Shown here: piece by piece, positions 36,806 to 41,121 of the stretch
Position numbering within the stretch: position 1 is the stretch's first letter
Layout of the letters: the number at the start of each line of letters is the position of its first letter
NCBI GenBank assembly: GCA_004297165.1
Contig: SCUJ01000001.1
Coordinates: 124,001 to 188,000, forward strand
DNA: 64,000 nucleotides
Reading direction: 5' to 3'
From: Gammaproteobacteria bacterium
GTDB lineage: Bacteria > Pseudomonadota > Gammaproteobacteria > Eutrophobiales > Eutrophobiaceae
Notes under the pieces: generated by a model
The model's input: the letters and a program-made list of their open reading frames with translations, nothing else
What the model was told of the DNA's origin: nothing
Databases searched by the model: none
Translations under genes and position numbers: made by a program

Positions 36806-37144
36806 TCAGTCCTCGTCCGGCAGGGCAGGGAGGGCGTAGCGCGAGGCGAGCGCAAGGGCGCTCATGTAGATGAACCCGCCGTGCGGACGGTCGATGTCCG
36901 CGGCGTAAAAGAGATACTCGAAGATCTCCTCCGCCCGATCAATCCCTACCACAACGCAGAGGATATCCTTCTCCATCTGTTCGCCGGTGTCGCGACGGGC
37001 GCCTGGCATGAGCTTGCCCAGGCCGCGGGCGGAATTGATACAGACGGTGATGATCCGCTTCTCTGACTTCAACCGCTCGACCACATGGCTGGCGATCCCC
37101 TTCGGCAGGATGCAGGTGATCAGTTTATGATCGTGCTCCGTCAT
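36806..37144 (-). CDS. P-II-like regulatory protein (second copy)
   Basis: A 112-residue member of the GlnB/PII superfamily: L-I-T-C-I-L-P-K-G-I-A-S-H-V-V-E-R-L opening, a short irregular loop region around R-G-L-G-K-L-M-P-G-A-R-R-D-T-G-E-Q, and the C-terminal I-F-E-Y-L-F-Y-A-A-D-I-D-R-P-H-G-G-F-I-Y-M. The canonical T-loop with the uridylylated tyrosine is absent, so it is not GlnB/GlnK but a PII-like sensor. It lies 8 nt downstream of another PII-like gene, which is itself coupled to a DUF1538 membrane protein. By analogy with PII-like partners of transporters it probably binds a small ligand and controls that membrane protein. Confidence 0.78.
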   Translation of the reverse strand: MTEHDHKLITCILPKGIASHVVERLKSEKRIITVCINSARGLGKLMPGARRDTGEQMEKDILCVVVGIDRAEEIFEYLFYAADIDRPHGGFIYMSALALASRYALPALPDED

Positions 37145-37152
37145 GACCGCAT

Positions 37153-37536
37153 TCAGGGTTTTTTTGGACGCATCGCATGCCTGCCGAGGCGTTCGGCGAT
37201 CTCCCGTGGGATGTGCGTCGCGGCCTTTTCCAGCGGCGTGACATAAATAAGTCCCATCCCGGGCGTATCCAGATCCCCGGCGAGATAGATGCGTTCGAAG
37301 ATCCGATCGACCTGGTCGGTTGCGACCAGGATGTTGATGACCTCCTTCTCCACCTCCGCCGCGAGCCCGAGGATGCCGAGGCGTTCGCGCGTCCCCTCGC
37401 CGCGGGCGTGAAAGATGGTGGCGCCATGGGCGCCGGCCTCCTGGGCCGCAGCCACGATCGCATCCGCCTTGCCTCTGGGCACGATGCAAGTGATCAGGGC
37501 GACATCGGTTAGGACGATGATTTCATTTTTGTTCAT
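37153..37536 (-). CDS. P-II-like regulatory protein (first copy)
   Basis: A 127-residue PII-superfamily protein: A-L-I-T-C-I-V-P-R-G-K-A-D-A-I-V-A-A-A, the glycine-rich H-A-R-G-E-G-T-R-E-R-L in the T-loop position without tyrosine, and I-F-E-R-I-Y-L-A-G-D-L-D-T-P-G-M-G-L-I-Y-V-T. The two PII-like genes here are diverged from each other, so they may form distinct trimers or respond to different ligands. The ATG at 37536 overlaps the DUF1538 gene stop by 4 nt, showing tight coupling of regulator and membrane protein. Confidence 0.8.
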   Translation of the reverse strand: MNKNEIIVLTDVALITCIVPRGKADAIVAAAQEAGAHGATIFHARGEGTRERLGILGLAAEVEKEVINILVATDQVDRIFERIYLAGDLDTPGMGLIYVTPLEKAATHIPREIAERLGRHAMRPKKP

Positions 37537-39284
37537 GCGAGATCCAGGGTGGTTTGTTCGCCTTCAAGGAATTCCGCGTCGGCCGCGTGGCGTTTGCGGA
37601 TCTTCCACCGGGTCCGGAGTCCGGCGCCAAGCACGGCGAGGATCGGACAGAGGGAGGCCAGGGCCAGGATGCCGAAACCTTCCAGCGCACCGACCCCATC
37701 GCCGAGACCGAGACCCATGGTCAGCGCCAGCGGCATGGTGACCGGGCCGGTCGTGACCCCGGCGCTATCCCAGGCGACAGCGACGTATTCCTCGCTGGAG
37801 ACGATGGTCAACAACAGGGCCAGGAGATAGCCGGGCAGGAGCAGCCAGCCGAGCGGTATCGCGAAGATGATCTTGATGACGCCGATGGCAATCCCGGCAG
37901 CCACGCCGAAGGCGATGGTTTTCATGAGCGTGGTTTTGCGAAGGGCGCCGTTGGTGAGATTTTCCACGGTTTGGCCCAGCGCGTTCAACGCGGGTTCCGC
38001 CATGGTGGCGCCGAAACCGAGGAACCATGCGAAGAGCGCGGCGATGCCGATGCCGATGGTAAAGGTATAGAGCGGGGAAGCGGGGATCTCCGCCATATGG
38101 GTAAAGGTGGCAGGGGCCAGCCCGGCAGACTGACCGCCCAGCCGGTTGAGACCGTAGCTCAGACCGACATTGAAGACGATCAACCCCAGGACGGCGAGGC
38201 CGATGCCGAAACCCGTGGTCCGGCGGTGTGGGATCTTTTCGCGCAGCAAATAACGCTGGATGCAATACAGAAACAGCACCAGGGGCAGGATGGCCCGGAT
38301 TCCCAGCAGGATCCCGTGGCTTGGAACGGTCGCGTACCAGGCGTCGCTGCCGTCCTGTGTCCGGGCCGCTGCGGCAGCGATTATTTCTTCCGGGCTTGCC
38401 GTTTCCGCCAATATCATCGCGAGGACCAGCACGCCAAGTACCGGAAGGATGGAGGCCAGGGAAATGATGCCGAATCCGGAGAGCGAGGATCGCCCCTTGC
38501 CGGCAGCGCCCGCCATGCCGATCCCGAGCGCAAGCGCCAAAGGCGCGGCAACCGGCCCGATGGCGGTCGCGCCACAGTCCCAGGCGAGGCCGACGATCGG
38601 TCGCAAGGCCGGATCGCGCATGCAGTAAACAGTGATCGCCAGCGTCGGGATAACCGTGAGGTAGATCAGCGGGCGCAGACTCCAACCCTGAAGGATCCGC
38701 AGGGCGCCAAGCACTGCCGCAAGTCCCACGCCGAGACCAATCACGAGGACCAGGGCCAGGGCCCAGTCATTCAACAGGGCATGGTGGTAGGGCGCCTTGC
38801 GGACATCGACGCTGGCCCCCGCCGCCTGCAAGGCGCCAATAGCCGGTTCGGCAAAGGCAGCGCCGACGCCGAGCAGGAAGATGACATACAACACGGTCGA
38901 AAGGCGCCCCCTGGACGACAGGGTATTGCCGATGGTTTCGCTGAAGGGCATGAGACCCACCTTGAGTCCTTCCATGAACAGCATGAGGCCGACGATGACG
39001 GACAGGAGGCCGCCGCCGATGACCCACGCATCCGCGACATTCTGTTTCAGGATCAATAATTGAAACAGGACCAGGTAACCGGCGAGCGGCACGACCGCCT
39101 TGAGCTGGTCCCGCAGGCGGATGCCGAGACAGGACCTCAGCAGTCTGTAGGTATCGATGCCGCGCAACTGCATATTGAACGAACCATCCGGGGCGATCCG
39201 CTGACTCAGCAGGGCATAGCTGATCGGCCGCTGCTTGATGTCGACCTCACGCAGATAGGCGCCGAAACGAATCGTCTTGTTCAT
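37533..39284 (-). CDS. DUF1538 membrane protein with internal duplication
   Basis: A 583-residue polytopic inner-membrane protein built from two homologous halves. Each half has an A-E-P-A-x-x-A-L motif (145-152 and 429-436) and a W-D-x-x-x-x-x-x-G-P-V signature (235-245 and 505-515) followed by P-L-A-L-x-x-G-x-G and G-F-G-I-x-x-L-A-S-x-x-P-I/V-L. Inverted or tandem duplicated halves with conserved polar residues inside helices are typical of transporters, so a transport role is inferred; the substrate is unknown. Its ATG at 39284 lacks any Shine-Dalgarno. A perfect ribosome site 36-47 bases upstream serves a six-codon reading frame instead. Confidence 0.75.
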   Translation of the reverse strand: MNKTIRFGAYLREVDIKQRPISYALLSQRIAPDGSFNMQLRGIDTYRLLRSCLGIRLRDQLKAVVPLAGYLVLFQLLILKQNVADAWVIGGGLLSVIVGLMLFMEGLKVGLMPFSETIGNTLSSRGRLSTVLYVIFLLGVGAAFAEPAIGALQAAGASVDVRKAPYHHALLNDWALALVLVIGLGVGLAAVLGALRILQGWSLRPLIYLTVIPTLAITVYCMRDPALRPIVGLAWDCGATAIGPVAAPLALALGIGMAGAAGKGRSSLSGFGIISLASILPVLGVLVLAMILAETASPEEIIAAAAARTQDGSDAWYATVPSHGILLGIRAILPLVLFLYCIQRYLLREKIPHRRTTGFGIGLAVLGLIVFNVGLSYGLNRLGGQSAGLAPATFTHMAEIPASPLYTFTIGIGIAALFAWFLGFGATMAEPALNALGQTVENLTNGALRKTTLMKTIAFGVAAGIAIGVIKIIFAIPLGWLLLPGYLLALLLTIVSSEEYVAVAWDSAGVTTGPVTMPLALTMGLGLGDGVGALEGFGILALASLCPILAVLGAGLRTRWKIRKRHAADAEFLEGEQTTLDLA

Positions 39285-39447: not shown

Positions 39448-41121
39448 TCAGAACAAACCGGTGATGTTGCCCTTTTCGTCGATGTCGATCTTGACGGCGG
39501 AGGGGACCTTGGGTAGACCCGGCATGGTCATCATGTTGCCGGCGATGGCGACGATGAAGCCCGCCCCGTTGGAGACCCGCACCTCGCTGATCTCCACGGT
39601 GTGATCCGTGGGGGCGCCGCGCACGGCAGGGTCTGTGGTGAAGGACATCTGGGTCTTCGCGATGCATACCGGAAACTCGGGGTATTCCTTGCCCAGGGTG
39701 TCGATCTGCTTGCGCATGGCGCCGCTCGCGGTAATGCCCACCGCCCCGTAGATCTTGGTCGCGATCGCCTCGATCTTCTCCCAGAGCGGGGCCTTGGCGT
39801 CATAGACGTATTTATGCTTGCCCGGCTTCTTGTCCACGACCGCTGCAACCGCGCGGGCGAGTTCCTCCGCGCCGGCGCCGCCGTGCGCCCAGTGCCTGGC
39901 GACCACGGCCTGGCTGCCCATGGCCGTCACGCTGTCCTGCAGCAGCTTGATCTCGGCATCGGTGTCCGCCGTGAAGTGATTGATGGAGACCACGCAGGGC
40001 AGGCCGTAATGGTTCTGGATGTTGCCGAGATGCCGCTTCAGGTTCTCCATCCCTTTCTCAAGCGCCTTGAGGTTTTCCTTGCTCAGGTCTTCCTTCGCGA
40101 CGCCGCCGTGGTATTTCAGGGCCCTGACCGTCGCGACCAGGACGATGGCCGCCGGGTTGAGTCCTGCCTTGCGGCATTTGATGTCGATGAATTTTTCCGC
40201 GCCCAGATCCGCGCCGAATCCGGCCTCGGTGACCACATAATCCGCCAGTTTGAGCGCGGTGCGCGTCGCGGTCACGCTGTTGCAGCCGTGGGCGATGTTG
40301 GCGAAGGGTCCGCCATGGATGATGGCGAGGTTGTTCTCCAGCGTCTGCACCAGGTTGGGTTTGATGGCATCCTTGAGGAGCACGGCCATGGACCCATGGG
40401 CGTTGAGTTCCCGCGCATGCACCGGCCGGCGATCGCCTTTGGTGTAACCGATGACGATGTCGCCCAGACGTTTTTTGAGGTCCATGAGCGAGGTGGCGAG
40501 ACAGAATATGGCCATGACCTCGGAGGCCACGGTGATGTCGTAACCGTCCTCGCGGGGGTAGCCGTTGGCCGTGCCGCCCAGCGAGTTGACGATCTTGCGC
40601 AAGGCCCGGTCGTTCATGTCCACCACGCGCTTCCACGTGATGAGGCGCGGGTCGAGGTTCAACTCGTTGCCGTGATGGATGTGATTGTCGATCATCGCGG
40701 ATAACAGGTTGTGGGCGGTGCTGATGGCGTGGAAGTCGCCCGTGAAATGCAGGTTGATGTCCTCCATCGGCACGACCTGCGCGTAACCGCCGCCGGCCGC
40801 TCCGCCCTTGACGCCGAAACAGGGTCCAAGCGATGGCTCGCGCAGACAGACCAGGGTGTTCTTGCCGATGCGGTTCAGGGCGTCCGCGAGGCCGACCGAG
40901 GTGGTGGTCTTGCCTTCCCCGGCGGGGGTCGGGCTGATGGCCGTGGTCAGGATCAGTTTGCCGTCCTTGCGGTCCTTGAGGGTCTCGATGAAGTCCAGCG
41001 AGATCTTCGCCTTGTAATGGCCATAGGGCTCCAGGTGTTCCGGCGCGATCCCGCACTGCTTCATCGCCAGTTCCATGATGGGTTTCTTGTTCGCCTGCTG
41101 GGCGATTTCAATATCGGACAT
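39448..41121 (-). CDS. fhs: Formate-tetrahydrofolate ligase
   Basis: ATP-dependent synthesis of 10-formyl-tetrahydrofolate from formate, feeding purine synthesis and one-carbon metabolism. The 557 residues match the family. The P-loop is [10 protein letters not shown] at 65-74, and [20 protein letters not shown] is the characteristic folate/ATP site. AGGAG lies nine bases before the ATG. A weak TTAAGC-17-TATATT promoter-like pair lies ~50 bp upstream on the minus strand. It stands alone between the DUF1538 leader and pyrG. Many gammaproteobacteria lack this gene, so formate assimilation may matter to this organism. Confidence 0.95.

Follow-up and report, generated by a model that had tools for sequence, protein, structure and literature searches.

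The two homologous DUF1538 proteins UmpA and UmpB of Halomonas zhaodongensis were described in 2017 as a heterodimer with Na+(Li+,K+)/H+ antiport activity, in which neither UmpA alone nor UmpB alone rescued the E. coli test strain, while umpAB together is active in E. coli in the absence of its own PII protein (PMC5484666). Regulation of membrane transport by PII proteins is known from other families, and the PII targets known so far are trimeric transporters (review, PMC10710835). The stretch of 64,000 nucleotides analysed here, referred to as the window, carries a three-gene operon on the minus strand (positions 36806-39284, according to the ORF listing and translation), consisting of a fused umpAB gene and the genes of two PII-like proteins, PII-1 and PII-2. 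Like the Halomonas system, it contains an UmpA-type and an UmpB-type DUF1538 unit with seven predicted segments each and conserved acidic residues. However, the window form is a single polypeptide that starts with a long N-terminal extension, is distant in sequence and is followed by two PII-like genes, whereas a PII partner is not reported for Halomonas UmpAB (PMC5484666).

Organisation of the operon

The features of the operon are listed in Table 1. The stop codon of umpAB and the start codon of PII-1 overlap by 4 nt, as they also do in 42 of the 76 relatives compared below, and translational coupling of the two genes via this overlap is possible. PII-2 follows PII-1 after 8 nt; its start was assigned to the ATG at 37144 in agreement with the homologues, the longer frame from the TTG at 37489 running into PII-1. 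Relevant Rfam riboswitches were found neither near the operon nor in 20 split loci or 10 long-fusion loci, the promoter scan at the operon gave matches at or below chance level, and the terminator-like sites nearby are consensus matches only. The next gene upstream, at a distance of about 160 nt from umpAB and likewise on the minus strand, encodes a formate-tetrahydrofolate ligase (window positions 39448-41121); this neighbour does not recur in relatives.

Table 1. Features of the umpAB-PII-1-PII-2 operon, with positions in the window.
Feature	Position	Strand	Basis and remarks
umpAB, fused UmpA-UmpB, 583 aa	37533..39284	-	PF07556 x2; predicted 14 membrane segments; model pLDDT 87.7
PII-1, PII-like protein, 127 aa	37153..37536	-	Pfam P-II 3.9e-11; family profile vs PDB PII 1.5e-7
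PII-2, diverged PII-like protein, 112 aa	36806..37144	-	profile vs PDB PII E=1.8e-6; Foldseek E=2.4e-7; profile vs PII-1 1.6e-26
ATGA overlap, umpAB stop / PII-1 start	37533..37536	-	sequence
N-terminal cytosolic extension (predicted), residues 1-54	39123..39284	-	long only in two-PII class
AEPA motif half 1, residues 145-148, E146 invariant	38841..38852	-	alignment; helix break in model
WDx6GPV motif half 1, residues 235-245, D236 invariant	38550..38582	-	alignment; helix break in model
AEPA motif half 2, residues 429-432, E430 invariant	37989..38000	-	alignment; helix break in model
WDx6GPV motif half 2, residues 505-515, D506 invariant	37740..37772	-	alignment; helix break in model
Short T-loop of PII-1 (GTRERLGILGLAAEV)	37351..37395	-	strongly conserved: mean top frequency 0.82 vs 0.73 in core
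Short T-loop of PII-2	36977..37021	-	poorly conserved: mean top frequency 0.38 vs 0.54 in core; low pLDDT

The fused membrane protein

The membrane protein matches DUF1538 (PF07556) with two domains (E=3.9e-95, 317.6 bits as opposed to a curated cut-off of 22.6), and its two halves share 29% identity over 245 columns (E=9e-17). Both the A-E-P-A and the W-D-x6-G-P-V motif occur in each half, in accordance with a sequence-only reading of the window, which had described a duplicated DUF1538 protein with these signatures. The same reading regarded the operon as an uncharacterised transport system, a view that has to be revised, since Na+(Li+,K+)/H+ antiport has been demonstrated for the split family member UmpAB (PMC5484666). 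In NCBIfam, half 1 is closest to UmpA and half 2 is closest to UmpB, and the window protein is therefore considered a natural fusion of the UmpA-UmpB pair. With 197 and 149 bits, it misses the equivalog cut-offs of UmpA and UmpB (NF041627 and NF041628; 490 and 500 bits). As a clear split umpA/umpB pair also falls short of these (376 and 359 bits), the window protein is filed here as an UmpAB-like relative and not as an equivalog. One short fusion clears the UmpA cut-off by adding the scores of both halves.

The residues E146, P147, D236, E430, P431 and D506 are identical in 71 of 71 aligned fused homologues. In the structure model (pTM 0.87), seven membrane segments can be read in each half, with breaks in the third and the sixth where the AEP and WDx6GPV motifs lie, and the acidic residues of these motifs are likely to form the ion site of an exchanger. 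If an inverted 7+7 arrangement is assumed, the fused protein has 5.9 Lys/Arg in the 47 residues of the assigned cytoplasmic loops versus 3.4 in the 95 residues outside. Split UmpA and UmpB show the same charge bias in opposite orientations, less clearly and with one contrary UmpB loop, in a comparison in which the gene order may be reversed in a few split loci. The fused protein is probably an inverted-repeat exchanger with 7+7 oppositely oriented segments and both termini in the cytoplasm. Searches for a known fold gave no match below E=0.05 with Foldseek against the PDB, no meaningful match with VIA-align (Z at most 7.2) and none in a sequence search of the PDB; NCX_Mj was rejected as a fold relative, as its Z of just 3.5-4.7 is not meaningful. 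In nearly all long fusions, Q60 is preceded by 57-78 residues, versus about 33 or fewer in the other classes. This N-terminal extension has a mean top frequency of 0.52 and a low pLDDT when taken alone. It is a candidate docking segment.

The two PII-like proteins

PII-1 and PII-2 are both PII-fold proteins. PII-1 passes the curated Pfam cut-off for P-II (43.6 vs 25 bits), and its family profile matches PII structures in the PDB (Table 1). PII-2 has no match in Pfam, NCBIfam or a single-sequence search of the PDB, but PII structures are recognised with its family profile, and Foldseek pairs its predicted structure with PII proteins including GlnK at a probability of 1.00. Both families were aligned to E. 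coli GlnB and GlnK as references. In this alignment, the T-loop of both is about five residues shorter, the segment with Y51 being deleted, and the basic residues at K90, R101 and R103 have been replaced. This deletion accounts for the missing T-loop tyrosine to which the sequence-only reading had drawn attention in both small proteins. Judged by their residues, GlnB-style sensing of 2-oxoglutarate by PII-1 or PII-2 is unlikely. PII-1 keeps both Gly-x-Gly stretches that line the nucleotide pocket (G46, G48, G93 and G95), which makes an adenine nucleotide possible as a ligand. The conservation of the short T-loop in PII-1 and its variability in PII-2 suggest that PII-1 makes a conserved contact.

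The closest profile to PII-1 is that of PII-2 and vice versa (1.6e-26, compared with 5.6e-19 and 1.2e-10 to the split type). In the tree of the PII-like proteins, which is based on few columns and leaves the deep order unsettled, the PII-1, PII-2, split-type and triple-type lineages are separate. A recent local duplication of PII-1 giving rise to PII-2 was considered and is unsupported, because both are separate lineages across the loci, with the deep forks unsettled.

Gene linkage and related loci

The linkage of the three genes is nearly perfect. Among 80 relatives taken from genome contigs, which were retrieved with patterns from the window protein and are hence close kin by design, the order umpAB, PII-1, PII-2 with overlapping or adjacent genes was found in all 76 with enough downstream DNA, the remaining four stopping at or near a contig edge. 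Gamma-, Beta-, Alpha- and Zetaproteobacteria and Bdellovibrionales are among the record titles, as are MAGs with the labels Elusimicrobia, Gemmatimonadetes, Lentisphaerae and Myxococcota. Outside the cassette, none of the flanking gene families was present in more than 12 of the loci, indicating that umpAB, PII-1 and PII-2 travel as a unit. DUF1538 is present in 127 of 370 gammaproteobacterial genomes, and all 15 strong PII-1 matches in these genomes adjoin a fused umpAB. The nearest genome, which is from the same genus (G001, contig C88), carries the same cassette at the same position, where a sensor kinase and a response regulator adjoin it, and additionally has a split umpA/umpB pair with a single PII-like gene (L187). 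On plasmids, the fused protein had no match, and the two-PII cassette was thus not found there, while an annotated plasmid of Methylocystis rosea carries a split umpA/umpB with a PII-like gene.

The survey of umpAB loci revealed a pattern of split umpA/umpB with one PII-like gene, the long fusion with two, and a third class with one triple-domain chain. Wherever enough DNA was available, split and short-fused loci have a PII-like gene beside umpA/umpB, which lies directly downstream in the split ones. Of the split or short-fused loci, 20 were extended, and in 13 of them (L188, L192-L196, L199-L203, L206, L207) the next gene encodes a CBS-pair protein; none was found in two-PII loci. The split umpA-umpB-PII-CBS operons resemble the window operon in combining a DUF1538 pair with a PII-like gene, and many have two regulator genes, but their antiporter is unfused, and they have one PII-like gene and a CBS-pair protein in place of PII-2. 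The third class is formed by UmpAB fusions with a linker of about 100 residues between the halves (L153, L154, L155, L157-L161), and the neighbouring gene encodes a single polypeptide of about 380-410 residues in which three PII-like domains are arranged in tandem; the weak third domain is supported by profile comparison (9.4e-12). PII-like genes also occur in other settings. A split-type gene with no umpAB nearby immediately precedes a CPA2 Na+/H+ exchanger that has TrkA domains (L184:4033-6412), a PII-CBS-CPA2 row lies at a contig end (L180:2527-5332), and another split-type gene is located on a short contig without umpAB, in a genome without a DUF1538 match (L181:1387-1740).

Proposed mechanism and alternative explanations

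We consider it reasonably probable that the operon encodes a monovalent-cation/H+ antiporter of the UmpAB family which is switched at its cytoplasmic face by two small-molecule-responsive PII-like proteins. PII-like trimers would bind to this face of the antiporter and switch its activity, with PII-1 making contact through its conserved short T-loop, perhaps together with the class-specific N-terminal extension, while PII-2 would either act as another sensor or join PII-1 in a mixed trimer. The signal would be an adenine-nucleotide-like ligand rather than 2-oxoglutarate. Since Halomonas umpAB is active alone in E. coli, the role of the PII partners is probably to tune or inhibit transport, for which they would not be required. 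This reading is supported by the family and fusion of the transporter, the characterised Halomonas pair, the fixed gene order without recurring flanking genes, the PII-like genes of the split and short-fused loci, the position of all strong PII-1 matches beside fused umpAB, the triple-domain chain of the sister class, the PII-type gene next to a CPA2 antiporter and the positive-inside charge bias. Antiport by the fused form is itself expected from family membership, and its distant kinship to the tested Halomonas pair, together with the missed equivalog cut-offs, is a point against this interpretation, as is the restriction of the known PII targets to trimeric transporters (PMC10710835). A double ligand input via PII-1 and PII-2, as proposed in the sequence-only reading, is plausible.

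In a variant which does not exclude the gated antiporter, PII-1 and PII-2 form one mixed trimer and thus a single regulator with unlike sites, a possibility we take seriously while rating it somewhat short of probable. The two proteins have mutually closest profiles and always co-occur, and the sister class places three unlike PII-like domains in one chain, which makes unlike subunits in one trimer plausible; however, the strongly differing T-loop conservation is also compatible with separate roles. More tentative still is the proposal that a cation/H+ antiporter family is under dedicated PII-like sensors and that here a mixed PII-1/PII-2 trimer, corresponding to the covalent triple-PII chain of the sister class, integrates two different ligands on one antiporter.

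The fused protein could also move another substrate, such as bicarbonate or another ion or solute, instead of exchanging Na+, Li+ or K+ for H+. So far, experiments cover a single split pair of the family, the identities of the halves to UmpA and UmpB are low, with the equivalog scores given above, and a bicarbonate carrier is controlled by the PII-like SbtB (PMC8352866). We nevertheless regard this as unlikely, as the motif acidic residues are invariant across all aligned classes of fused proteins, a related PII-type gene also adjoins a CPA2 cation/H+ antiporter, and hosts such as Pseudomonas and Bdellovibrionales are not autotrophs. Less likely again is that the PII-like proteins are kept at the membrane by the transporter and act on another target, an enzyme or regulator, with gating being secondary. 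A precedent is GlnK, which AmtB sequesters and releases (PMC10710835 and references therein), and PII proteins have several targets, but the cassette travels with no further gene. That the small proteins are ordinary nitrogen regulators adjoining the transporter gene by chance, as the NCBI label "P-II family nitrogen regulator" on relatives and the Pfam match of PII-1 might imply, is hardly tenable, given three genes of canonical GlnB/GlnK type at other places in the genome (107-111 bits vs 43.6 for PII-1), the loss from both window proteins of the residues used by canonical PII for uridylylation and effector binding (Y51, K90, R101 and R103), and the linkage to umpAB in 76/76 relatives. The sequence-only reading, which had named standard nitrogen regulators as the finding that would speak against it, is thus upheld in regarding the two proteins as non-canonical PII-like partners tightly coupled to the transporter.

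Comparison with known PII-transporter systems

No literature on a link between UmpAB and PII was found in a search of a collection with few subscription papers and preprints, so that this absence is not proof, and the one paper mentioning UmpA, PII and antiporter together was off-topic by title and abstract; nothing relevant was found on tandem triple-PII proteins. A paper on formate tolerance in Shewanella was rejected as an UmpAB precedent, as it deals with SbtA, which belongs to another family. If the proposed mechanism is true, PII-type proteins would control the homeostasis of pH and monovalent cations, and two known subjects, UmpAB antiporters and PII signalling, would be connected. The mechanism also suggests roles for many genes annotated as "DUF1538" and "P-II family nitrogen regulator", and the series from one PII to two PIIs to a triple-PII chain provides a natural test of how PII trimers became sensors with unlike subunits.

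Among the known systems, SbtA-SbtB (PMC8352866) likewise combines an inverted-repeat secondary transporter, as predicted here for UmpAB, and a PII-like protein in one operon. However, its transporter is unrelated to UmpAB by sequence, there is one PII-like partner instead of two, the T-loop differs, and binding is proven, whereas it is proposed for the window system. In AmtB-GlnK, a membrane transporter gene is also linked to a PII gene, but GlnK retains the canonical T-loop with Y51 as well as K90, R101 and R103, which PII-1 and PII-2 have lost. The window operon has the stable transporter-PII gene linkage of these systems (76/76). UmpAB antiporters on the one hand and PII-regulated transporters on the other are known; what seems to be new is their association.
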